Part shown: one piece after another, positions 2,383-31,685 of the stretch
Position numbering within the stretch: the first letter of the stretch is position 1
Layout: each line of letters opens with the position of its first letter
NCBI GenBank assembly: GCA_019186965.1
Contig: JABARV010000007.1
Location: forward strand, 1 to 35,191
Direction: 5' to 3'
Origin: Turneriella sp.
Lineage (GTDB): Bacteria > Spirochaetota > Leptospiria > Turneriellales > Turneriellaceae
DNA: 35,191 nucleotides
Notes under the pieces: model-generated
What the model was told of the DNA's origin: nothing
Databases searched by the model: none
What the model saw: only the letters and a program-made list of their open reading frames with translations
Translations under genes and position numbers: made by a program

Positions 2383-4328
2383 GGTTCTACTTTCAAAACC
2401 ACTGTATCGCCGGCCTTTAGGTGGTTGGTTGCGTTTGGAACGTTGCTTTTTGCTTCCAGAATATCAAAATCAGCACGTATAACTTTAAATTCACGCGTAT
2501 TTCCCATTTTGTCGAAAATGGCGAGGGTTGTGCCTTTAGAAATCCTGTCCCGTTTCCCTGTATTTACTAAAATAGATTCTCCATCTTGTATGCGTAAAAT
2601 ATTGGCGCTTAAGGGGGCGTTTTTAAAAACAAAAGTAGCTAACCGTACCGACGCTTTACTCAAATAGTTGCGCCCTTCTGCTTTAAAATTTTCGAGTGCA
2701 ACACGAATTCCCGAATCGGCGTCGACAAGCTCTGCTTCTACAGAGATGCCGTGGCGGGTTTCTGTGAAAAAACCTGTTAGTACAAGCCCAAGCGTACGGC
2801 GCCTAAAAGGTTGGATGTTTTCTTCGGCGTCTATAGCCGTTTTGTACGTTGTTTTTAGGATGCGTAGGTTCTCAGGAGTAAAAATTTGTGCCTCGGGTAA
2901 ATTTACCATTTCGCGAGAAATCGAGCGTACACGCCCGTAGTCTTGCAGTGCCACCCGTGTCCTGTCAGAAAGCGCGACGCCCCCTAAAGGGTGGTCGTGC
3001 AGTGGATCTTTTGTACGGAAAGGGTATACATGGATGGGAACGGGGTTTTTATTATGTTCCGGGGTAGGAAATCCTTCTTTAACGTACCAAATACCGCGGC
3101 GCTCGCTTTCAAACTGCTCAACCCTCTCGCGTGCCTCGCGGCTTTGTGTCGCGCCGCGTAAGAAAAAGAGTTCGTCCGACAACCTTTCATAATCTTTTTT
3201 GCGGCGGAAATACTGGGTTAAATCTTCGTGTACGGCGATATACGCAGGGAAAAGGAATTCTGCCCAACGCAAATTTTCTAAAGCAAAGGCGTCGCTATTT
3301 TCGCGCATTGCACGTTTTGCAATTTGGTAGTGGTAACGCGCTGCTTTTGTAAGTATAGGATGCTCGCGCCTCTGGTTTAAGGAAAGGCGCAAAAGTTCTT
3401 CTTGGTGTCGGGTAAGGTCGTCGTCCTCGTTGCGCCGTAAATAGGCGTTCAGGTATTCTTCCGCGCCATTAGCATGGCAAAGCGCGTAGACAACGACTAC
3501 GCTGCGCATTTCTTTTTCGGTTTGGATAAGTTTGTTTAAGTAGTCGCTCGCTTCGTTGCATTTTCCTGTAACTGCCAAAAGTTGCGCGAGCATTAAATTA
3601 ACCGACAGGTTTTGCGGGTTGTTTGAATACGCGTGCCGCAACGCGTCTAATGCACGTAGAGCAGCGTCGCTTTCGAGAGAAAATATTCCGCTTGGGGTAT
3701 CTTTAAAGAAGGCGTCGATACGCGCACGGGCGATAGCGACAGCAAGTTCGTTATTTTCAGGAATGAGGGATTGTATTTTTCTAAACTCGTCCTCTGCTTT
3801 TTGGAACTGTTTTAGTTTCAAATAAAGCCCAGCAAGCCGTACACGCGTTTCGGTATGCCCCGGGTTGTTACGTAAAATACCGTCGATTTTACGCTTTGCT
3901 AAAGCGTATTGCCCGTTATCGATAAGCACCTGTGCGCGTAAGGAGTCTGCGTCGGAGTTTAGCCGTTTTTTGTTTTCAACGGTACTAAGGCATTTTTCAA
4001 ACGCAGCGTTGTTTTTAAGTTTTAGTTCAATACGTGCGCACAAAATAGCGGCTTTGTCGTTTTCTGCATCTAAACGAAGCGCCTTTTGGATTAATTCTTC
4101 TGCGCTTTTAGTCTCGAGAGAGTCGTTCAAAATTTGCGAAAGTAGAATTAACGCCGGCACGTAATTTCCGTTGCGCCGTAATGATTCGCGTGCCATGTCA
4201 CTTGCGCGTATAGTGTCGCCTTTAGTAGCAAGCTTTACCGCTTCGTCGTAATAGTACTGCGCGGAGTTTGGCGCTGCAAAGCGTGTTGCGGCAAAAGTAA
4301 AGAGTAAAAGGACAAAGAATTTTTTCAT
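2379..4328 (-). CDS. Secreted TPR-repeat protein
   Basis: The 649-residue product begins with a signal peptide (MKKFFVLLLFTFAATRFA). Tandem TPR-like helices fill roughly residues 22-400 (for example NNPGHTETRVRLAGLYLKLK, and NPQNLSVNLMLAQLLAVTGK). The C-terminal third is a mixed alpha/beta region ending in a small beta domain (RISKGTTLAIFDKMGNTREF, then AGDTVVLKVEP). That ending resembles the FlgT C-terminal fold, but this is only a visual impression. The start codon overlaps the stop of the upstream VWA gene as ATGA, so the two are probably translationally coupled and function together in the periplasm. No enzyme motif is visible. A scaffold or assembly role for an envelope complex is plausible but unproven. 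Confidence 0.7.
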   Translation of the reverse strand: MKKFFVLLLFTFAATRFAAPNSAQYYYDEAVKLATKGDTIRASDMARESLRRNGNYVPALILLSQILNDSLETKSAEELIQKALRLDAENDKAAILCARIELKLKNNAAFEKCLSTVENKKRLNSDADSLRAQVLIDNGQYALAKRKIDGILRNNPGHTETRVRLAGLYLKLKQFQKAEDEFRKIQSLIPENNELAVAIARARIDAFFKDTPSGIFSLESDAALRALDALRHAYSNNPQNLSVNLMLAQLLAVTGKCNEASDYLNKLIQTEKEMRSVVVVYALCHANGAEEYLNAYLRRNEDDDLTRHQEELLRLSLNQRREHPILTKAARYHYQIAKRAMRENSDAFALENLRWAEFLFPAYIAVHEDLTQYFRRKKDYERLSDELFFLRGATQSREARERVEQFESERRGIWYVKEGFPTPEHNKNPVPIHVYPFRTKDPLHDHPLGGVALSDRTRVALQDYGRVRSISREMVNLPEAQIFTPENLRILKTTYKTAIDAEENIQPFRRRTLGLVLTGFFTETRHGISVEAELVDADSGIRVALENFKAEGRNYLSKASVRLATFVFKNAPLSANILRIQDGESILVNTGKRDRISKGTTLAIFDKMGNTREFKVIRADFDILEAKSNVPNATNHLKAGDTVVLKVEP

Positions 4329-7384: not shown

Positions 7385-8353
7385 ATGGAATTACGTAAAA
7401 TTAGCTTAACGTTACCTGCGGGTATAAGGCTTGATAAATTTCTTTTCGACGCTTTGAACGAAAAAGGAGAAGGTTTGTCTCGTTCGCGTATACAATCGCT
7501 TATTGAAGAGGGTAACCTTTTAGGGTTAGGTGCGGCAAAAACAAAGCCATCGTATAAAGCCAAAGAACCCGTCGCGATAGAAATCCACCTACCTTCGGCC
7601 AAAGAGGTGGCGCTAAAGCCGCTGAAACTTAAAATTCCTGTTTTGTACGAAGATAAATATTTAGCCGTCGTGCATAAGCCGCAGGGGATGACAGTCCACC
7701 CGGGGGCGGGAACGGCTGATGATACTTTGGTGCATGCTCTCCTCCACAATATCGATACACTTTCGCCGAGTAAAGACAGGCCAGGGATTGTGCATCGCCT
7801 CGATAGGGAGACCGAAGGCGTGATGCTCATCGCAAAAACAGAAGGTGCGCGCGAAAGGCTTTCTGAAGCTTTCGCCGAACGAAAAATTTCAAAAACGTAC
7901 GAAGCGCTTGTTTGGGGAAAAGTTACGCTTCCCAAAGATGTGTCGGGATTTATTTGGCGCGACATCCACGACAGAAAAAAAATGCGTTTTGGAGAAAATA
8001 TTCCAGAGCGCGTAAAGCGTGCACGTAGTGCAGAACTTCTCATCGAAGAAGAAGAGCCGTTAAAACATGCAACACGCCTAAAAATTAAACTTATTACGGG
8101 GCGTACGCACCAAATACGCACGACGTGTGCGTACTTTAATGCCCCTATTATTGGCGATACGCTTTACGGTAAAGACGTTGAAAAAATAAAACTTTATAAA
8201 TTGCCGAAAGCAACGCAGCAAAAAATTTTTTCAGGCGGCATGATGCTCGTCGCACGTTCGCTTACCTTTACGCACCCGTTCCTTAAAAAAAAACTTACCT
8301 GTTCAATCGACTTACCCGAAAAATTTTTGCTTCTTAGGGATGCACTGGGATAA
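7385..8353 (+). CDS. rluD: 23S rRNA pseudouridine synthase (RluD-type)
   Basis: The 322-residue enzyme has an N-terminal S4 RNA-binding domain (RLDKFLFDALNEKGEGLSRS, about 15-34) and the RluA-family catalytic domain. The catalytic motif IVHRLDRETEGVMLIAKT places the nucleophile at Asp140. GRTHQIRTTCAYFNAPIIGD is the conserved C-terminal motif. RluD makes pseudouridines in helix 69 of 23S rRNA; the S4 domain and length fit RluD better than RluA. A second family member without an S4 domain is encoded at 29374-30192. It overlaps or abuts the sulfatase gene, whose probable ATG (8355) follows the rluD stop by one base, so they are likely cotranscribed. Confidence 0.85.
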   Translation: MELRKISLTLPAGIRLDKFLFDALNEKGEGLSRSRIQSLIEEGNLLGLGAAKTKPSYKAKEPVAIEIHLPSAKEVALKPLKLKIPVLYEDKYLAVVHKPQGMTVHPGAGTADDTLVHALLHNIDTLSPSKDRPGIVHRLDRETEGVMLIAKTEGARERLSEAFAERKISKTYEALVWGKVTLPKDVSGFIWRDIHDRKKMRFGENIPERVKRARSAELLIEEEEPLKHATRLKIKLITGRTHQIRTTCAYFNAPIIGDTLYGKDVEKIKLYKLPKATQQKIFSGGMMLVARSLTFTHPFLKKKLTCSIDLPEKFLLLRDALG

Positions 8354-8354
8354 A

Positions 8355-10363
8355 ATGGCGGGTGGATTGAAAAAAATACAACCATTACTTGTTCCTGTGT
8401 TTTTACAATTACCTTGGTATATCGTAATTTTTAGTATTGCGCGTTTTGCAATGTATGTTGCTTTTGTAAAAGATGCTACACACGTCTCTCGTGACGATTT
8501 TCTTACGTTGTGGTTAACGGGGCTTCGTTACGATTTACGCATAGCAGCTTCGGTGGGGCTTGTACTTTTGCTTTTTGGAGTTCTGTCACTAATTCCATGG
8601 AAGAGGTGGCGTGCTATTTTAGTTAGAGCGATTCCTTTTTTAAGTGGTATAATTTCTTTTTTCGTTATTTTTTTAACAATAGCAAATTATTTTTACTACC
8701 AAACATACCATACACATATCGATATATTTGCCTTTGGAATAATAAACGATGATACAAAAGCTGTTCTTATCAATATGTGGGATGATTATCCTATTGTTTG
8801 GGTGTTTTTTGCAACGGTAATTTTATCGTTTGTAGGTTATTTACTGGGGCGAGTAAAAAATATTGATGTGCCGTACAGCTCTCGCGAAAAGATCACCAAA
8901 AATATTGTAGTCTCTATCTTTGTTGTGTTGCTCCTTTTCTCTTTAGCACGTGGTAGTTTTGGACTCTTTCCTTTTGATCGCGATACTGCACCCATGCCAC
9001 AAGACGGAGTCCTGAACCGCTTAACTCCTAATGCTATTATGGCGTTGGGATGGGCGATTCAAGATTATAAAGATGATCGTGATTTTATTGTAGTCAAAAA
9101 TTCTGAGAAAGAATCACTTCTTAAAAAAATTGGATATCGCTTCACTTTATAAACGAACGAAGAAAAATTTGTGGCTTGCTAAAAATCCGCCGCATGTTGT
9201 TTTCAATTTTATGGAAAGTTTTGGGAGTAATGTTCTTGTGTTAGATAAATTTCCAGAAAATAATCTTTTGGGGAGTTTAAGAGATGCTTTCCAGAAAGAT
9301 TTCGTCTTTGAACGGTTTGTTTCCGAAGATAATGGTACTGCACCATCTTTGGCGGCACTTTTTTTTAACAGTACTTCGCATAACATTAGCCATAATTCAG
9401 CACAAAAAGTCGTACTCAAAGATACTCCTTTCAAAGTTTTTAAGAGTCGAGGCTACCAAGTAATTTTTATATCCCCCGGCAATTTAATGTGGCGTAATTT
9501 GGCAAATTATTTGCCGCTCCAAGGGGTAGACAAAGTTTTTGACCAAAATACACTCATGAAATTTTATCCCGAGTCGAAAAAAGAATTAACACCTTGGGGT
9601 TTGCCGGATGAATATGCGTACCGGTTATCTTTTCAACTACTTGAAGAATCCAGAGAACCGCTTTTCCTCGTTGTTTTAACAGTGACAAACCATCCACCGT
9701 ACGTTGTACCAAAACATTATACCCCATACCCTGTAAAAATAACGGAAGAGGTAAAGGCGCACATCGAAGGAAGCGAAGAAGAAAAGTTACAAATTTTGCG
9801 TACATTCCAGTATGCATCTGACGCATTTGGACAATTTATCCAACAAGTTAAAAAGTCACCCTTTAAGAAAGAAAACACTCATCGCTGCTACAGGGGACCA
9901 TTCGCTGCGTCGAGTAAAAGCATACCTCCCTCAGGAGTTAGCTTTAGATAGGGCGGTTCCATTTTATCTTTATGTACCACCAGAGGTTCAACAGCATACC
10001 GAGCTTAAGTATGCACCTTTACGCGTAGGTTCGCATAAAGATATTTTTCCAACATTGTTTTCATATTCTTTGTCGAATACAGAATATCTTGCATTAGGGG
10101 GGAGAAATCTTTTAGCGCGGACGGATGATACTTCTTATGCATTTGGGTATAATTCTACCTTGTGGATTCACGATTCTGGTGTATATCCTTTAAACGTGAA
10201 CGGTAGAAAGTACGCATGGAAAGATAAGCGCTCGCTTTATGTTTTGGAGAAAAGTTTTCCCGTAGAAAAAAAACAGCAAGAAAAAATATTTGCCTATCCT
10301 GCTCTTTTGCGTTGGCACACCAATGCAATGGTTAAGGGAACTATTGAAAATCCAGTTCAATAA
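8355..10363 (+). pseudogene. LTA-synthase-family sulfatase / phosphoglycerol transferase, two frame breaks
   Basis: Three consecutive frames together give one protein of about 670 residues. The first (to 9152) holds five membrane helices and the segment FGIINDDTKAVL typical of Gram-negative LtaS-like proteins. The second (about 9127-9951) starts the periplasmic sulfatase domain, with FNFMESFGSNV and NGTAPSLAALF, where the threonine should be the nucleophile. The third (about 9866-10363) has TLIAATGDHSLR and VGSHKDIFPTLF. The breaks lie at an A7 run (9123-9129) and in a purine run near 9869-9880; in each case removing one base restores the frame. Such enzymes transfer phosphoglycerol or phosphoethanolamine to envelope glycans. 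ATG 8355 is preferred because GGGA precedes it. Sequencing error, pseudogenisation and slippage all remain possible. Confidence 0.75.
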
Positions 10364-11461
10364 TCCATGCGGTAATGGATGGAAAGTGAAGCGATTGCAG
10401 CGATAATGTTGGCAAGGTTTCCCGCAATTAGGGGGTGTATCGTACCACTTTCACCAAAAGCAGTACCGAAATACATCAAGAAAAAATAGATAATGGTAAA
10501 AATCATCGAAACAGCGATGCTCGTTGCAGCATTACCTTTTTTAAGACGGCCGCCTACCATCCCGCCTAAGAAAACAATAAAAAAACAAATAAGAGGATAA
10601 CCCGCATGCCAAAAAAATTCTGTGAGAAATACCGCATACTCTCCCCCCAATTCTTTGCGCTTTTGGTATAAATCATATACATAAAAAATAGAGCGTTCTT
10701 CTGAATCACGGTCGATATAGAAATTACGAAAAGATTTCATTGTTTCGGGAAGAGGAAGAAAAAGATTTGTATACGTTTTTGTTTCAAGGTACGCCCCTTG
10801 CGAATTGAAAAGGGACATTCTGGCGTTTACAAAATTCCATAGGTGAGATTTTCCATCAGCAGAAATTGCTTTATCGGCGTCAACCATCCGTGATACGATT
10901 CCTTCGGAATTGAGTTCGAGTAAATGGAAGCCCATGAGAGTGTTTTCGTACCACGCACCATAACCAATTGTGTAATACCGGTTATCGAAGCGCAAGGTTA
11001 AATCGTCGCTATACGTGTATTTTTTAAGCCTCGCCGCAGGCCCCTTGTCACGCAAGATATAGCTAATATCGACTGCTTTATACGCAGAAGGATACGCCAC
11101 GTACTCGTTAAACAAAAAAAAACGCAACCGAAAGGAAAATAGAAAAAATGAAAAGCGGGCGTAAAATACGCTTGAAAGAACGCCCTGCAGCCATAATTAC
11201 CGTTAGTTCAAAATGGCGGTTGAATTGTGCAATGGTGAACGCTATGGCAAACATGAGCGCAGGAGGAACGATAAACGTCACGAACGATGGGCTTACGACG
11301 GTATAATACTGTACAAGAAGCCACGTACCGTGTGTGTTACCCGCAAACATTTTAAGCGAGTCGATTATTTTAACGATGACTGCAAGGCCAAAAAGGAGTA
11401 AGAGTGTCCCTACAAAGGTTTTAAGGAACGATTTGAAAATGTACCTGTCGAGGATATCCAT
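10357..11461 (-). pseudogene. LptF/LptG-family LPS export permease, frame break at a T9 run
   Basis: The N-terminal frame (11461-11108) begins MDILDRYIFKSFLKTFVGTL, the YjgP/YjgQ opening, and looks nearer LptG than LptF. It carries three membrane helices and ends FLSVAFFFV. The C-terminal frame (from about 11127 down to 10357) resumes with FFLFNEYVAYPSAYKAVDIS and ends in three further helices. The join lies in nine T residues on the coding strand; eight would make the gene continuous, about 367 residues, the normal length. The family exports LPS from the inner membrane with LptB. It follows pgi by 33 bp and overlaps the sulfatase gene tail to tail by 7 bp. LptD is encoded in the same window but not beside it. 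Confidence 0.8.
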
Positions 11462-18004: not shown

Positions 18005-18310
18005 GAGCTATGCTTTGCAATGTGGGCTGCCCTAAGCCGCTCACAAAGAGGAAGTCTGGGGAGTGTTTAAAAAATCACCTACGACGCGAAAACGCGTACG
18101 CCGAGCGCTACGAGATTTGTAAAGCCAAATCTCGTAGCTGTTTTCGCTTTGTAGCCGTGCCTGTGCAGCACGGTTCGTGACTTTTTAAACACTCCCCTAC
18201 TGGTGAAAATCCAGCGCTGACCCGCAACCGTAATAGTTATCATAAACACCCCCTAACGGGGGTGTTTATGATGCCTTTAGCCGGGAACTCTTGCCGATAT
18301 GCCCCGAGGA
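18005..18310 (+). promoter_or_regulatory. Cobalamin (B12) riboswitch, aptamer split by an insertion
   Basis: The B12-box core is visible: CTGGTGAAAATCCAG, GCTGACCCGCAACCGTAA and AGCCGGGAACTCTTGCC (18280-18296). The preceding AGGAAGT element (about 18049-18055) normally lies a few bases before the GGTG strand but is here separated from it by the palindromic element at 18058-18197. The variable arm 3' of the GTAA is a perfect 15-bp hairpin (18239-18272). It ends about 75 bp before the lipoprotein ATG at 18385, whose AAGGGGG ribosome site (18374-18380) could pair with GCCCC near 18301, giving translational control. It should switch off the B12-uptake genes when adenosylcobalamin is plentiful. 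Confidence 0.85.
18058..18197. mobile_element. 140-bp MITE-like palindromic element inside the riboswitch
   Basis: The two ends are 21-bp inverted repeats with one mismatch, beginning GGGGAGTGTTTAAAAA on the left and ending TTTTTAAACACTCCCC on the right. The interior is also self-complementary: CTACGAGATTTG (18108-18119) pairs with CAAATCTCGTAG (18126-18137), flanked by a 15-bp arm with 12 matches and a small CCGTGC/GCACGG hairpin. It has no ORF. No target-site duplication longer than 2-3 bases is evident. The RNA should fold as one extended rod. Confidence 0.7.
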
Positions 18311-18384
18311 CACGGGCATGAGGCGAAACGCCGCTCGAAAAATATTTTCCATTTCGGTGGCAAGCGGGCTCCTAAGGGGGCTGT

Positions 18385-19341
18385 ATGAAAATACAACAAA
18401 TCGCGCTTGTCTTTATGGCAACGCTCATCGCGCATTGTGCGCAAATCAACAAAGAAGAAATCGCAGGAGAAACACCTGCCACAACCAATCCAGGTGGCGG
18501 AGGCGGGGGTGGGGGGACATCCACCTTGAACGCGCAACTGGCGACGGGAGTCGTCGACGCTCCGTGCAACGGCCACACCGGCGACGGCTGCCAATCGTCG
18601 TTTAGCGACCCAACCAAAGTGACAAGCGGCGTCAAAGGCGCAGGCTGGGGCTCTGGTTCATTCGATGTCTATTCAATCTCTGAAAGCACCGCCGACGGTG
18701 GTAAATACGCAACGCTCATTCTCGACTGGCAGGGTGGGACAGTAAAAAATGTTCCAGGGTTGGATTTCATCGTGTACGAAAATGCCTTTGAGTATGCGGG
18801 TACATACGGCACGCGTTTTATGGATTTGATTATTGTGAGCGTCAGCCAAAACAACACCGACTATTGCGGATGGCCTGTGGAATACAAAGGCAAAAAAGGA
18901 AGCGATAGCTTGGCCGATTTCCAAAACGGAAGCTTGACGGGGGATAAAAATGCCTACTCCAAGTGGCCAGAGGCATGGATACACTTTGCGGGAAAATCCC
19001 CGACGGCGTGGAACAAAGACACCAACCCCATGAGCTACGACGATTTATTCGCCACCAAGACCACCGAATATTACAACACTGCAACGCCACCGGTGCTGAT
19101 GTATTCGCGCACCGACCTCAAGGGCGGCGGCGATGGATTCGATTTAGATAATTTGACGACCGATGCCGCCACCTGTACTGCAACTGTGTTGAACAATATT
19201 GTCACCAACGGCTTTAAGTACATAAAGCTCCAAGCGGCGCGTAGCCTTATTAACCCCGATACCAGCGCTCTTTATCCGCACGAGGCGATATCGAACGGGC
19301 CCGATATTGACGGTGTCTTGGCGCGGCACGTTGTTCCGTAG
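18385..19341 (+). CDS. B12-regulated surface lipoprotein (FENAF/GGDxFDL-type)
   Basis: The 318-residue product has a lipoprotein-type signal ending LIAHC (Cys18) and a short linker with eight glycines (about 37-44). A single globular domain follows. Its recognisable landmarks are GSFDVYSISE, LDFIVYENAFEY, MDLIIVSVSQNNTDYCGWPV and GGGDGFDLDNL, then GFKYIKLQAARSL. I recall these as the hallmarks of a family of cell-surface proteins usually annotated only as such. As the first gene after the cobalamin riboswitch, followed by the TonB receptor, it is probably an outer-leaflet lipoprotein that assists B12 capture. A B12-binding role is inference from the regulation. Start is the ATG preceded by AAGGGGG. 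Confidence 0.75.
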   Translation: MKIQQIALVFMATLIAHCAQINKEEIAGETPATTNPGGGGGGGGTSTLNAQLATGVVDAPCNGHTGDGCQSSFSDPTKVTSGVKGAGWGSGSFDVYSISESTADGGKYATLILDWQGGTVKNVPGLDFIVYENAFEYAGTYGTRFMDLIIVSVSQNNTDYCGWPVEYKGKKGSDSLADFQNGSLTGDKNAYSKWPEAWIHFAGKSPTAWNKDTNPMSYDDLFATKTTEYYNTATPPVLMYSRTDLKGGGDGFDLDNLTTDAATCTATVLNNIVTNGFKYIKLQAARSLINPDTSALYPHEAISNGPDIDGVLARHVVP

Positions 19342-19363
19342 AATTTTTTTTGGTTGGGTTGGT

Positions 19364-19414
19364 AGAGACACACCTTGCAGAGACGCGCTACAGCGCGTCT
19401 TAACGTGTGTCTCT
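19364..19414. repeat. Composite palindrome between B12 operon genes 1 and 2
   Basis: Outer arms AGAGACACAC (19364-19373) and GTGTGTCTCT (19405-19414) enclose a perfect inner hairpin, AGACGCGC-TACA-GCGCGTCT (19381-19400). It begins 22 bp after the lipoprotein stop and ends just before the receptor's first ATG. It resembles GTAGAGACGCG-type dispersed palindromes found in several bacterial genomes. Confidence 0.7.
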
Positions 19415-19417
19415 GTA

Positions 19418-21379
19418 ATGTTGGTGGCGTTGGGGTTATTGAACGCAATCTACGCCGAAGATGTCCCCGCCAAAAAAATTAAAACACCTATCCGCCTTAT
19501 TTCGCACGGGGAAAATAAAACCGCCGGAAACTACCGCGTCATTCCTCTCGAAGATTCTACCGACGCCTCGCTTTCGGATAGAACGTCCGATGTATTGCAG
19601 CGGCAAACCGGCGTTGAAGTGAACCGTGCCGGCGCACCGGGGACACAAAGTATTTTGGGGATCCGTGGCTCCAACCCCGATCAAGTGGAATTTTTTTTAG
19701 AAGGCGTGCCTCTCCCCAAGCCGTACAACGCGCCGCTCAATTTAGAAATATTGCCGCTTGCGCTTTTTCAGTCGGTCGATATTTTCCCGTCGTTTGTACC
19801 ATCGCATTTACCCGCAACCAATTTCGGCGGTGCGATGGATTTTCGCGTGCGCCGCTCTAAAGGAGATACTCCTGAGTATTTAACCGAGTTACGTTTGACG
19901 TCTCTTTTGGGCTCTTCGCTTTCGCTGGCGCGGGTGAGCAGGTTGGGGTTACACTTTGCGAGCGCAGAAAATAGCCAAAACTATTACCGCTATAAAAGCG
20001 ACAATGGAACGAGTGAAAATTTAGCCGACGATAAAATACTCTACCGCACCAACGAAGATTTTAGCCGCTTTGGCTATACCGGTTTTATGGACGCTAAAAT
20101 ACACGCGTGGACCATCAAAGCTCTTTTGGATATAAGCCATGCCAACCGCGGACTTCCCGGCGTGGCGAGTGCGCCGCTTTCAGCCGTGCGTAAAGTAGAC
20201 ACCCGCGCCTCGGTAGCACTGACTCTCGAGCGCAAGATTGGGGATGCGCAAAAATTATCTTCGTTCGTTTCCACAACGCTGGAGAAAACACGCATCGACG
20301 ATCCAAAAACCGAACTTTTTTTTTCCCGCTCGCAGGAGTCATTTGCACCACAGGCGTTGGCAGGCGTTTCGTATGCAATCGGTTTAGAAAGTTTCGATGC
20401 CTCTTTCAACATCCGGGGAAGTACGCAGTTTTTATTTTTGAACGAAAATAAAATTGCCGAACGAAAACGCGCCGATGCTGCCACATCTTTTTCGTACGAT
20501 ATACGCTACGTGCGTTTGGCAGCGCAAGGGGGATTGAGTGCGAACGAGGACAATGCATCCGCAGGCGCGTTTTATGGCACGGGGGATAAATATTTTTACG
20601 GTACGGGACTTAACGCATCCGGAATTTTTACCCTAAGACCTCTTGCGTGCCTTTCTTTTTTCCAAAACAAAAATTTTAGTGACGAAATTTTGGAACTCTA
20701 CGCGCAAGCCTCAAGTGCGTATCGGGATCCGTCGCTCTATGAACGCTTTGGCGACAACGTGTTTGTCACCGCCTCTGAAAAATTAAAAAGCGAAAACGCC
20801 ATCACCAACGCCGCAGGTGTAAAAAGCAGTTTTGGGTGTGTTTGGGGTTTTACATGCTCGCTGCGTAGCGAAGGGTACGTCACCGGCGCACACGACTATA
20901 TCATCTTCACGCAAAATTCGTCGCGCACACTCATTGCAGTCAATGCATCGAGCGCACAAATTTGGGGAGTTGAAAACGAACTGCTCTTTGATAAACCGGA
21001 GGTGTTTATGTTTTCGTTGCGGTACTCGTACCTTGATGCAAAGGACTATGGAAAAATTCCCTACTACCAAGATAAGTATTTACCATTCCGTCCCCGCCAC
21101 CACGCGTACATAAGCGCAGCGTGGACGTATCGTTCATTACGCTTCTTGGCTTCTTTAGATTACCGAGGCGCAGTTTTTCGTGACCGGTACAACAGCTACG
21201 CGTATTACCTTCCCTCGAAGACTCTCGTGGATTTAGGCGTTGAGTATTCATTTGTGCGTGCAGCAAAGCACACTTTAACTTTTACCGCGAAAAATATATT
21301 CGATAACACTGAGGTCGATTTAATTGGGTATACAGTCCCCGGAAGGTATTTCGTATTCAAATGGATGGCAACATGGTAA
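19418..21379 (+). CDS. TonB-dependent receptor, BtuB-like
   Basis: This outer-membrane gated channel has an N-terminal plug (SDVLQRQTGVEVNRAGAPGT, LGIRGSNPDQVEFFLEGVPL, NFGGAMDFRV) and a beta-barrel ending with FVFKWMATW, an aromatic C-terminus. From ATG 19418 it has 653 residues. This start leaves an unusually short uncharged signal (MLVALGLLNAIYA), so the true start may be TTG 19331, which would give a charged n-region and read through the hairpin at 19364-19414. The frame is open back to 19307. Substrate is inferred as cobalamin, because the operon is under a B12 riboswitch. Import energy would come from TonB-ExbBD encoded elsewhere. The third gene starts at or just after its stop. Confidence 0.82.
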   Translation: MLVALGLLNAIYAEDVPAKKIKTPIRLISHGENKTAGNYRVIPLEDSTDASLSDRTSDVLQRQTGVEVNRAGAPGTQSILGIRGSNPDQVEFFLEGVPLPKPYNAPLNLEILPLALFQSVDIFPSFVPSHLPATNFGGAMDFRVRRSKGDTPEYLTELRLTSLLGSSLSLARVSRLGLHFASAENSQNYYRYKSDNGTSENLADDKILYRTNEDFSRFGYTGFMDAKIHAWTIKALLDISHANRGLPGVASAPLSAVRKVDTRASVALTLERKIGDAQKLSSFVSTTLEKTRIDDPKTELFFSRSQESFAPQALAGVSYAIGLESFDASFNIRGSTQFLFLNENKIAERKRADAATSFSYDIRYVRLAAQGGLSANEDNASAGAFYGTGDKYFYGTGLNASGIFTLRPLACLSFFQNKNFSDEILELYAQASSAYRDPSLYERFGDNVFVTASEKLKSENAITNAAGVKSSFGCVWGFTCSLRSEGYVTGAHDYIIFTQNSSRTLIAVNASSAQIWGVENELLFDKPEVFMFSLRYSYLDAKDYGKIPYYQDKYLPFRPRHHAYISAAWTYRSLRFLASLDYRGAVFRDRYNSYAYYLPSKTLVDLGVEYSFVRAAKHTLTFTAKNIFDNTEVDLIGYTVPGRYFVFKWMATW

Positions 21380-29373: not shown

Positions 29374-30192
29374 TCAAACAAAGTATAACTTGAACTGCCT
29401 CAAAAAATCGTCGCTTAAATAAAAAACACATGGCTTTTTCTGTGTGGGGTGCGTAAACTTTAGTCCTGCCGATACAAGCGCAATACATTCTTTGTGGGCT
29501 TTTAAACGTATACCACCATATTTTGTATCCCCCAAAATAGGCGCACCGTACGCTGCAAAAAGGGTGCGGATTTGGTGGAATTTTCCCGTTTCTATCGAAA
29601 CCTCATAGTCAAAAATACCGTCTGTAGCAGCAACAAGCCTTGCTGTAAGCACGTACAAAGAAGAATTAGGTGCGCTACTTTGGATGGCTTTAAACGTGCC
29701 CTCGTAGCCCTGTTTTTCCATAGCTCCCGTAAGGATTGTGCGCCCTTTTCCGGGAAGCTTTGTGCTTGTTAGCACACGGTATTTTTTCTCAAATTTTTGT
29801 AGCCGGATTTCTTCTGAAACACGCGCCGCCGCTTTCGATGTGCGTGCAAGCACCATAAGGCCAGAGGCGGGTCTATCGAGGCGGTGTACTGCCGCACAAA
29901 AAACATTTCCGGGCTTTTGGTATTTTTCTTTAAGGTATGCTGCAAAAATTTCGTTAACCGATAAGTCGTGCGTTTTATCTTTTTGTGATAAAATTCCTGG
30001 AGGTTTAAAAATGACTAAAAGGTGGTTGTCTTCGTACAGGATTAAAGGAGCAAGGGAAGAAACAATTTTATCTTTAGATAAAACGATTTTCGATATACGA
30101 GAGTACTCAAACCAATTTTTTGCCAAAAGCGTAGGCAATGTGTTAAATACATCCTCCACACCCCCAGATGAAAAAGCAAGATACGCGTCCAA
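29374..30192 (-). CDS. RluA-family pseudouridine synthase without S4 domain
   Basis: The catalytic motif AAVHRLDRPASGLMVLARTS puts the nucleophilic Asp at residue 106 of the longest frame. FKPPGILSQ and FHQIRTLFAAYGAPILGDTK are the other family signatures. No N-terminal S4 domain is seen, unlike the RluD at 7385-8353, so it is closer to RluA/RluC-like or TruC enzymes; the rRNA or tRNA target is unknown. The frame begins at TTG 30192 and overlaps the divergent RsmG-SpoU gene by 25 bp. A GTG at 30159 would avoid this overlap and is about as likely. It precedes lptD on the same strand and is probably cotranscribed with it. Confidence 0.82.
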   Translation of the reverse strand: MDAYLAFSSGGVEDVFNTLPTLLAKNWFEYSRISKIVLSKDKIVSSLAPLILYEDNHLLVIFKPPGILSQKDKTHDLSVNEIFAAYLKEKYQKPGNVFCAAVHRLDRPASGLMVLARTSKAAARVSEEIRLQKFEKKYRVLTSTKLPGKGRTILTGAMEKQGYEGTFKAIQSSAPNSSLYVLTARLVAATDGIFDYEVSIETGKFHQIRTLFAAYGAPILGDTKYGGIRLKAHKECIALVSAGLKFTHPTQKKPCVFYLSDDFLRQFKLYFV

Positions 30193-31685
30193 ACCAAATT
30201 TTAAACCCCAAATCTACCCATAGGGAAAAAAAGGATTTAAAAATTTTTCAAAAGAGAGAGCTACTCAGCCTTTTAAAGGATATTCCACAGGTAGACGCAG
30301 ATAAAATCGAAAAACTTTTATTCCATTGGCAAAAAATGCTCGAATCGGAAGACCGTACCGACCTTACGCGTCTAGAAAAAGCGCACGATATTGCGCTTAA
30401 ACACTATCTAGATTCTGCGTTGCCGTTAAAGTTTATAAAGTTGCCTTCGCCGCTTTTAGACATTGGCACAGGAGCAGGTTTCCCCGGGCTTGTGCTTAAA
30501 ATACTTTCTCCAGAAACACACGTTATTTTAGGGGAGGTACGTCCTAAAAGGGTCGAGTTTTTAAGAAGTGTTATCCGCGATTTAAAACTAACCCAAATTG
30601 AAGTGTTTGCGCACCGTATTGGGCCACAGTTTCCACTGGAGATACAAGGCGTTGTTACCCGTGCACTGGAAAGCGCGCGCGATACCGTGTACCGTGTTGC
30701 TCCTTTTCTTCCCCAAGGTGGAAAAATAATTTTGCTCAAAGGCCCCCGTGGCGAAGAAGAAATTGTGGATGTATCGCGTGAGTTTAATGACTTTAAGCAT
30801 AAAGAGACATTTAACTATACTCTTGCGCAAACCCACCACAAAAGGCAGCTCATTATCTTTGAGCGTGTTTTTGAAAAAGTACGGCAAAGTGGAGAAGTTG
30901 CTCGGTCTACTTTGCCTTCTAAGATAGGTACAAATAAAAAAACAGAAATTACTTCACGCGCAAACCCCGTATTCAAGATGCTCTCTTCCTTGGAAAATTC
31001 ACGGAGTATTGCGCGGCACGAAAAATACCTTGTAAGCGGGCAAAAACTGGTAAACGAGATAATCCACCGTTACGCTAAAAACGTACGTGCGCTTATCTTC
31101 GATGCTACAAAACAAGATTTAAGGATGGCTGCAAATTTTGAAATCTTTTCTCTTGCTCCTGCACTTTTTCGCGAAGTTGATTTTTTAGGCTCAAAAAATA
31201 CTCTTGCGCTTTTAAATCTCCCTAAGCTTGTAGAATGGAAAAAAGATACCATCCCTGGAATTACAGTTTTTTTGCCCTTCCAAGATCCGGGAAATTTAGG
31301 CGCTGCAATACGCTCTGCAGCGGCGTTTGGCGCAAAGCGCGTTGTGCTTCTTAAAGAAGCTTCTTCTCCTTTTTTGCCCAAAGCGGTGCGTGCTGCCGCC
31401 AATGCGCTTTTCGAGATTGAAATTTTGTACGGACCCAGCCTAACAGAACTTTTAACGATGCCTCTTGAGTTGTATAGGCTTGATGCAGCTAAAGGAGGAA
31501 AAAATATTTCAGAGATAAAATTTCCCAAAAGTGTAATGCTCGTCGTGGGGGTCGAAGGGTATGGCTTTATAGAAAAAGGACAAAGTATCCCTATTGAAAT
31601 TCCTATAACAAGTAAAGTTGAATCCTTGAATGCACAAGCAGCTCTTGCCGTTGCACTCTACGAAATTTCACGCCGCTTAACCTAA
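30168..31685 (+). CDS. rsmG: RsmG - SpoU/TrmH fusion: bifunctional rRNA methyltransferase
   Basis: One uninterrupted 505-residue frame joins two RNA methyltransferases. Residues about 25-235 are RsmG (GidB), which makes m7G527 of 16S rRNA: LLFHWQKML, the SAM loop LLDIGTGAGFPGLVLKI (96-112), EVRPKRVEFLR (123-133) and VVTRAL (162-167). A polar linker follows (about 236-265). Residues about 266-345 form a SpoU substrate-binding-like domain, beginning LSSLENSRSIARHEKYLVSG. Residues 355-505 are the SpoU/TrmH knot, with DPGNLGAAIRSAAAFGAKRV (373-392), VVGVEGYGF (459-467) and SLNAQAALAVALYEISRR (486-503). The second half should make a 2'-O-methylribose in rRNA or tRNA. ATG 30168 has no clear ribosome site. 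The downstream methyltransferase follows by 1 bp. Confidence 0.87.
   Translation: MKKQDTRPNQILNPKSTHREKKDLKIFQKRELLSLLKDIPQVDADKIEKLLFHWQKMLESEDRTDLTRLEKAHDIALKHYLDSALPLKFIKLPSPLLDIGTGAGFPGLVLKILSPETHVILGEVRPKRVEFLRSVIRDLKLTQIEVFAHRIGPQFPLEIQGVVTRALESARDTVYRVAPFLPQGGKIILLKGPRGEEEIVDVSREFNDFKHKETFNYTLAQTHHKRQLIIFERVFEKVRQSGEVARSTLPSKIGTNKKTEITSRANPVFKMLSSLENSRSIARHEKYLVSGQKLVNEIIHRYAKNVRALIFDATKQDLRMAANFEIFSLAPALFREVDFLGSKNTLALLNLPKLVEWKKDTIPGITVFLPFQDPGNLGAAIRSAAAFGAKRVVLLKEASSPFLPKAVRAAANALFEIEILYGPSLTELLTMPLELYRLDAAKGGKNISEIKFPKSVMLVVGVEGYGFIEKGQSIPIEIPITSKVESLNAQAALAVALYEISRRLT

Follow-up and report, generated by a model that had tools for sequence, protein, structure and literature searches.

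Palindromic and mobile repeats have been described within or next to structured RNAs in other bacteria. Rickettsia palindromic elements (RPEs) sit in tmRNA and in M1 RNA (Ogata 2002; review: PMC2229807). The trp leader of pneumococci has a BOX element between two T-box riboswitches, and RNA-seq suggests that regulation persists there (PMC3049150). Regulation by MITEs through riboswitches was still only conceivable in a review of 2024 (PMC10969869). Cobalamin riboswitches have variable arms at P6 (PMC9600662) and, in examples other than the one described here, a kissing loop between L5 and L13 promotes hairpins of the ribosome-binding-site type (PMC10653944). The open-licence papers searched contained no report of a repeat located within a riboswitch aptamer. 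To our knowledge, cobalamin riboswitches vary in their peripheral arms, chiefly P6, and not at the joint next to the ligand site.

The window analysed here, i.e. the whole stretch of 35,191 nucleotides from Turneriella sp. (contig JABARV010000007.1), contains a cobalamin riboswitch at 18046-18384. It lies 5' of the genes for a lipoprotein of the LIC_13355 family, which is indicative of Leptospira relatives, and for a BtuB-like receptor. The riboswitch is split exactly at the joint between J3/4 (GGAAGT) and P4 by 144 bp, namely, a 140-bp palindrome and 4 bp. Read directly from the sequence, AAAGAGGAAGTCT is located at 18045-18057 and CTGGTGAAAATCCAGCGCTGACCCGCAACCG begins at 18200. A CTGG direct repeat flanks the insert at 18056-18059 and 18200-18203, and P4 is complete because this motif is repeated at both ends. 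A first-pass annotation of the locus had stated that all core blocks of a B12 riboswitch are readable. Sequence, relatives and fold confirmed this for P3 (AAGAG/CTCTT), J3/4 (GAAGT), P4, L5, P6 and P13/L13. Its interrupting element of 140 bp was correct for the palindrome, but the inserted length is 144 bp. The features of the leader and the two downstream genes are as follows.

18021-18045, forward strand: hairpin just 5' of P3, P2-like, from the fold.
18046-18050, forward strand: P3 5' strand AAGAG, pairing with 18288-18292 and supported by covariation in the leader alignment (A1).
18051-18055, forward strand: J3/4, GAAGT, from the alignment with relatives.
18056-18059, forward strand: left copy of the CTGG repeat, its last two bases being common to the element's GGGG; the 144-bp deletion is equivalent for starts 18056-18060.
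18058-18197, forward strand: 140-bp palindromic element, a branched rod and member of a dispersed-repeat family, from inverted repeats, fold, family alignment and a match of model R2 at 18059-18196 with 107.3 bits.
18198-18199, forward strand: TA linker from the element to P4, from the sequence.
18200-18214, forward strand: P4 hairpin CTGG-TGAAAAT-CCAG, the 5' strand being the right CTGG copy, from covariation, model R1 and fold.
18216-18225, forward strand: P5 and L5 (GCTGACCCGC), from the leader alignment and model R1.
18228-18284, forward strand: P6 (pairs 18228-18230 / 18282-18284) with a native variable palindromic arm at 18239-18272, from repeat scan, relatives and covariation.
18288-18292, forward strand: P3 3' strand CTCTT, from covariation and fold.
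18298-18320, forward strand: P13 hairpin whose loop CGAGGACAC is the candidate L13 partner of L5, from fold and relatives.
18360-18384, forward strand: AAGCGGG and the ribosome-binding-site hairpin GGCTCC/GGGGCT 5' of the start codon, with the same layout in L007.
18385-19341, forward strand: LIC_13355-family lipoprotein gene (NCBIfam NF033170, 196.1 bits, above the cut-off of 120).
19307-21379, forward strand: TonB-dependent receptor gene, BtuB-like (Pfam Plug; TIGR01779 with 63 bits, below its cut-off; best PDB match E. coli BtuB); the true start is possibly further in.

Both downstream reading frames are open. As read from the sequence, the L5 motif CCCG could pair with the L13 motif CGAGG, with one bulge, and P13 folds. 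P13 with its loop and the ribosome-binding-site hairpin match those of relatives. The leader contains a second palindrome at 18239-18272, which is the native variable arm of P6; relatives carry different palindromes at this place. This arm was a near-perfect palindrome in the window as well as in L007, L011, L013 and L036, with a sequence and length that differ for each relative, i.e. a fast-changing hairpin within a conserved aptamer. The same genome harbours a second, uninterrupted cobalamin riboswitch (L036, G000:C4:101189-101392) 5' of another lipoprotein-like reading frame. Elsewhere in the window, the reading frame 30168-31685 (505 aa) appears to fuse two RNA methyltransferases: its N-terminal half matches GidB (RsmG) and its C-terminal half SpoU methylase. 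Adjacent overlapping frames at 8340-9951 match DUF3413 and then Sulfatase, and at 10357-11461 a C-terminal part of LptF/LptG lies next to a second frame; each may be a gene split by a frameshift or sequencing error.

A search with the downstream protein in 61 genomes gave matches in 37 of them, the own genome counted. Leaders with a readable core had GGAA, four bases and GGTG, the sole exception being L024. Seventeen leaders were aligned (16 from relatives and the paralogous L036 from the own genome), and the joint was uninterrupted and constant in length in every one of them. The nearest relative, G006, has a syntenic gene order with a lipoprotein of 59% and a receptor of 54% identity; its leader (L007) lacks the insert. 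P3, P4, P5 and P6 were supported by covariation, with 95.4% of the cells paired. Two-sided changes were counted in 38 cells compared to 12.2 in shuffles, and the covariation score was 0.455 versus 0.165 for shuffled alignments and 0.06-0.19 for slid partners.

The effect of removing the segment was determined with a simple pair-aware profile of the core columns from the 17 leaders. The window scored 27.6 bits when read straight through and 88.5 bits without the 144 bp; the full sequence does not fit as well as the deleted one. Leave-one-out scores of the 17 leaders had a mean of 78 and a range of 48-89, inside which the deleted window falls. Among the starts and lengths tested, 144 bp was the optimum deletion, and the equivalence of the starts 18056-18060 is due to the CTGG at both ends. 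The first-pass annotation had proposed an insertion, and this is borne out by the absence of the segment in relatives, by the gain in score and by copies elsewhere in the genome. We regard the insertion itself as nearly certain.

A cmscan of the window with Rfam gave no match at gathering score. With relaxed settings, RF00174 matched only 18199-18286 (model positions 51-164) with 27.5 bits versus a gathering score of 31.5. This score is a weak criterion here because the uninterrupted leaders L007, L011 and L036 from the same genus are near or below it too (28.0-29.7 bits). Matches to mir-30, Phe_leader, GP_knot1 and RNAI in the relaxed scan were below gathering and were taken as chance. The clade model R1, built without the window, matched the window only from position 16 (positions 16-80, 47.9 bits); most uninterrupted leaders were matched over positions 1-88 with 59-82 bits.

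The inserted element has terminal inverted repeats at 18058-18078 and 18177-18197, 21 nt long and 95% complementary, in agreement with the 21 bp annotated before. Its folding energy was −73.3 kcal/mol compared to a mean of −35.4 for shuffled sequences (z = −11). Pattern, DNA and covariance searches revealed a dispersed family in the own genome as well as in congeneric ones. With model R2, 16 rows were obtained in the own genome, including reverse-strand echoes of the palindrome and short versions; eight were full-length at E ~1e-8 or better, the window included. G005 gave 27 rows, and G000, G005 and G006 are the copy-rich genomes; outside the genus, weak matches occurred in G016 of the same order only. 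The inspected copies are mainly intergenic, several of them right after a stop codon; at L091 and L098, the longest called reading frame overlaps the element.

A branched fold is common to 24 aligned copies, with 91.0% of the cells paired. Two-sided change was observed for 44 of 54 pairs and in 242 cells compared to 68 in shuffles, and the covariation score was 0.515 versus 0.149 (shuffled) and 0.07-0.09 (slid partners). These values come from an alignment fitted to the structure, which favours the structure; 17 pairs with two-sided change were already apparent when six copies were aligned by plain MAFFT. The terminal repeats vary in sequence between the copies while their complementarity is kept. 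Pairing, be it for an RNA or a DNA hairpin, is thus conserved over sequence since ends and helices change with compensation, and the family is notable for this in itself. The copy in the window is 65.5% identical to its nearest copy, the other own-genome copies in the alignment to about 83%. It retains 45 of the 54 consensus pairs, and a single 13-bp hairpin replaces the internal hairpins. As a separate observation, the members L002, L003, L041, L045, L058 and L091-L118, of ~140 nt and with strong covariation in all helices including the terminal repeats, may represent an undescribed structured repeat.

The element had been named a MITE. Two MITE traits are indeed present in the family, namely, dispersed copies and inverted repeats at the ends. 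A consistent target-site duplication was, however, not found across the 24 copies (CTGG at the window site), and no transposase was seen at the two solo-end loci listed. With covariation even in the terminal repeats and no consistent target-site duplication, it is not a textbook MITE. The element is a structured palindromic repeat, similar to ERIC or RPE, rather than a demonstrated transposase-dependent MITE.

Insertions at the joint are rare. In 48 genomes of the class, R1 yielded 77 matches, of which only those in the window and at G030:C1:275264-275335 were cut at position 16. In 393 genomes of the phylum, the window was the only match cut at the joint among the best 150 listed, and the G030 match ranks below these. 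R1 was used here instead of RF00174, whose phylum survey covers the best matches only and possibly leaves weak interrupted ones outside. In the G030 leader (L024, G030:C1, about 2814-2940, minus strand), also 5' of a LIC_13355-type gene, GGAAGT and GGTG are 44 nt apart, compared to two nt in relatives. Its minimum-energy fold consists of P3, two extra hairpins, P4, P5 and P6, with a stability no better than that of shuffles (z = −0.21). The 44-nt insert is single-copy in its genome and without visible relation to the window element. With two inserts that are unrelated to each other, the J3/4-P4 joint may be able to accept extra helices. An exact-motif scan of the genome contigs found no other joint insertions of 12-42 nt. 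Five candidates of 43-73 nt were rejected: four coincided with a regular cobalamin riboswitch in Rfam, L131 looked like one by eye, and all had a chance GAGGAA upstream. These scans require exact motif letters and missed G030, and are non-exhaustive in this respect.

The folding of the leader with the element was predicted. In the whole leader, the closing pairs of the rod had probabilities of 0.90-1.00. Folded without constraints, 18021-18300 had the native P3-P6 core as its minimum-energy structure, with the rod branching off from between J3/4 and P4 (gap 0.0 kcal/mol). When the element was left out, the energy of this core exceeded the minimum by 1.7 kcal/mol. The corresponding gaps in the whole leader were 2.0 kcal/mol with and 3.9 kcal/mol without the element. 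The expectation that the element folds out as a rod agrees with these predictions, in which the aptamer secondary structure of 18021-18300 stays the minimum-energy fold. As modelled, the element does not disfavour this secondary structure, the energies being silent on tertiary packing.

Tolerance of the element with retained B12 sensing appears to be the best reading, and loss of sensing its main rival. In the former, a palindromic repeat was inserted at the J3/4-P4 joint and the leader is probably still responsive to B12, maybe with altered affinity or kinetics. A dispersed repeat of ~140 bp, which presumably arrived by mobility, would have entered this joint in a riboswitch heading a B12-uptake-type operon. 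Through the 4-bp CTGG repeat left behind, neither the conserved J3/4 bases nor any part of the P4 5' strand would be lost. The transcribed element would form a self-paired rod of about −73 kcal/mol and exit via short CU and UA linkers, turning the four-way junction into a five-way junction. P3, P4, P5, P6, the L5-L13 kissing loop and the ribosome-binding-site hairpin should still be able to form. The aptamer may then fold round the rod and bind B12, upon which L5-L13 would form and translation stop. The rival reading holds that the element breaks the binding site and frees the uptake operon from B12 control, the rest being intact as the event is recent. An extra helix may indeed spoil binding at a joint that is constant in length in the 17 aligned leaders and next to J3/4, which lines the ligand site in known structures. 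Interrupted cases are just 2 of 77, and loss of the interrupted riboswitch could be bearable with the uninterrupted one at C4:101189-101392. Nevertheless, none of the core strands is damaged, nor are L5, L13 or the ribosome-binding-site hairpin, and P4 is complete through the CTGG repeat. This intactness may merely mean a recent insertion, but the diverged copy speaks against a very recent arrival; 65.5% identity versus about 83% would agree with an insertion that is old while the aptamer next to it has stayed intact. Inactivation is considered the less probable reading, but a serious alternative.

A more far-reaching proposal, which we put forward as speculative and unlikely, is that cobalamin riboswitch cores naturally accept insertions at the J3/4-P4 joint and that the covarying, dispersed palindrome has become a working fifth junction arm or processing site, i.e. 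a functional repeat-riboswitch chimera. That the rod was recruited and adds regulation, e.g. as RNase III site, pause or terminator site or aptamer-stabilising helix, is improbable. Long double-stranded rods are a type of RNase III substrate, and Correia elements are processed in this way (PMC10969869). Two terminator-like hairpins score within the element, but the terminator and promoter scans are near shuffled counts (3 versus 1.2) and support such a role poorly. The native core is the minimum-energy fold with the rod and 1.7 kcal/mol above it without, a difference that is small and within model error, and the insertion was not seen conserved in any other surveyed species. It is very improbable that the segment is a native riboswitch arm or the join an assembly chimera. 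Variable arms do exist in cobalamin riboswitches, though at P6 (PMC9600662), and the joint is free of such an arm in every other leader surveyed. Copies of the segment elsewhere in the genome argue against a native arm, and both the direct repeat and the optimum of 144 bp are in line with an insertion. The copy in the window has a sequence of its own (65.5% to the nearest copy), so a misassembly induced by repeats is unlikely.

The natural 144-bp insertion in an otherwise intact leader and the unrelated G030 insert at the same joint make the tolerance of the aptamer core directly testable. If the riboswitch still works, it would show how dispersed repeats can supply new helices to regulatory RNAs, and the joint would be a possible graft site for design.

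Compared to known systems, the leader resembles the cobalamin riboswitches of Rfam (RF00174, RF01482 and RF01689, clan CL00101) in its P3-P6 core, L5 CCCGC, P13 with L13, ribosome-binding-site hairpin and downstream genes of the B12-uptake type. It differs by the 144-bp insert between J3/4 and P4, which is present in none of the 17 aligned leaders. The element shares with MITEs, ERIC and other small repeats (PMC10969869) that it is short, dispersed, mostly intergenic and equipped with terminal inverted repeats and a stable stem-loop transcript. In contrast to these, its family has no consistent target-site duplication and its terminal arms vary with compensation. The closest precedents found are the RPEs in tmRNA and M1 RNA and the pneumococcal BOX between two T-boxes. 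Like the RPEs, the element is a palindromic repeat of ~100-150 bp within a structured RNA, presumed to be tolerated by self-folding. It belongs, however, to another repeat family in another phylum, and its host is a ligand-binding aptamer instead of tmRNA or RNase P RNA. The BOX element is likewise a mobile repeat in a riboswitch-controlled leader; it lies between two riboswitches, whereas the window element lies inside one aptamer.
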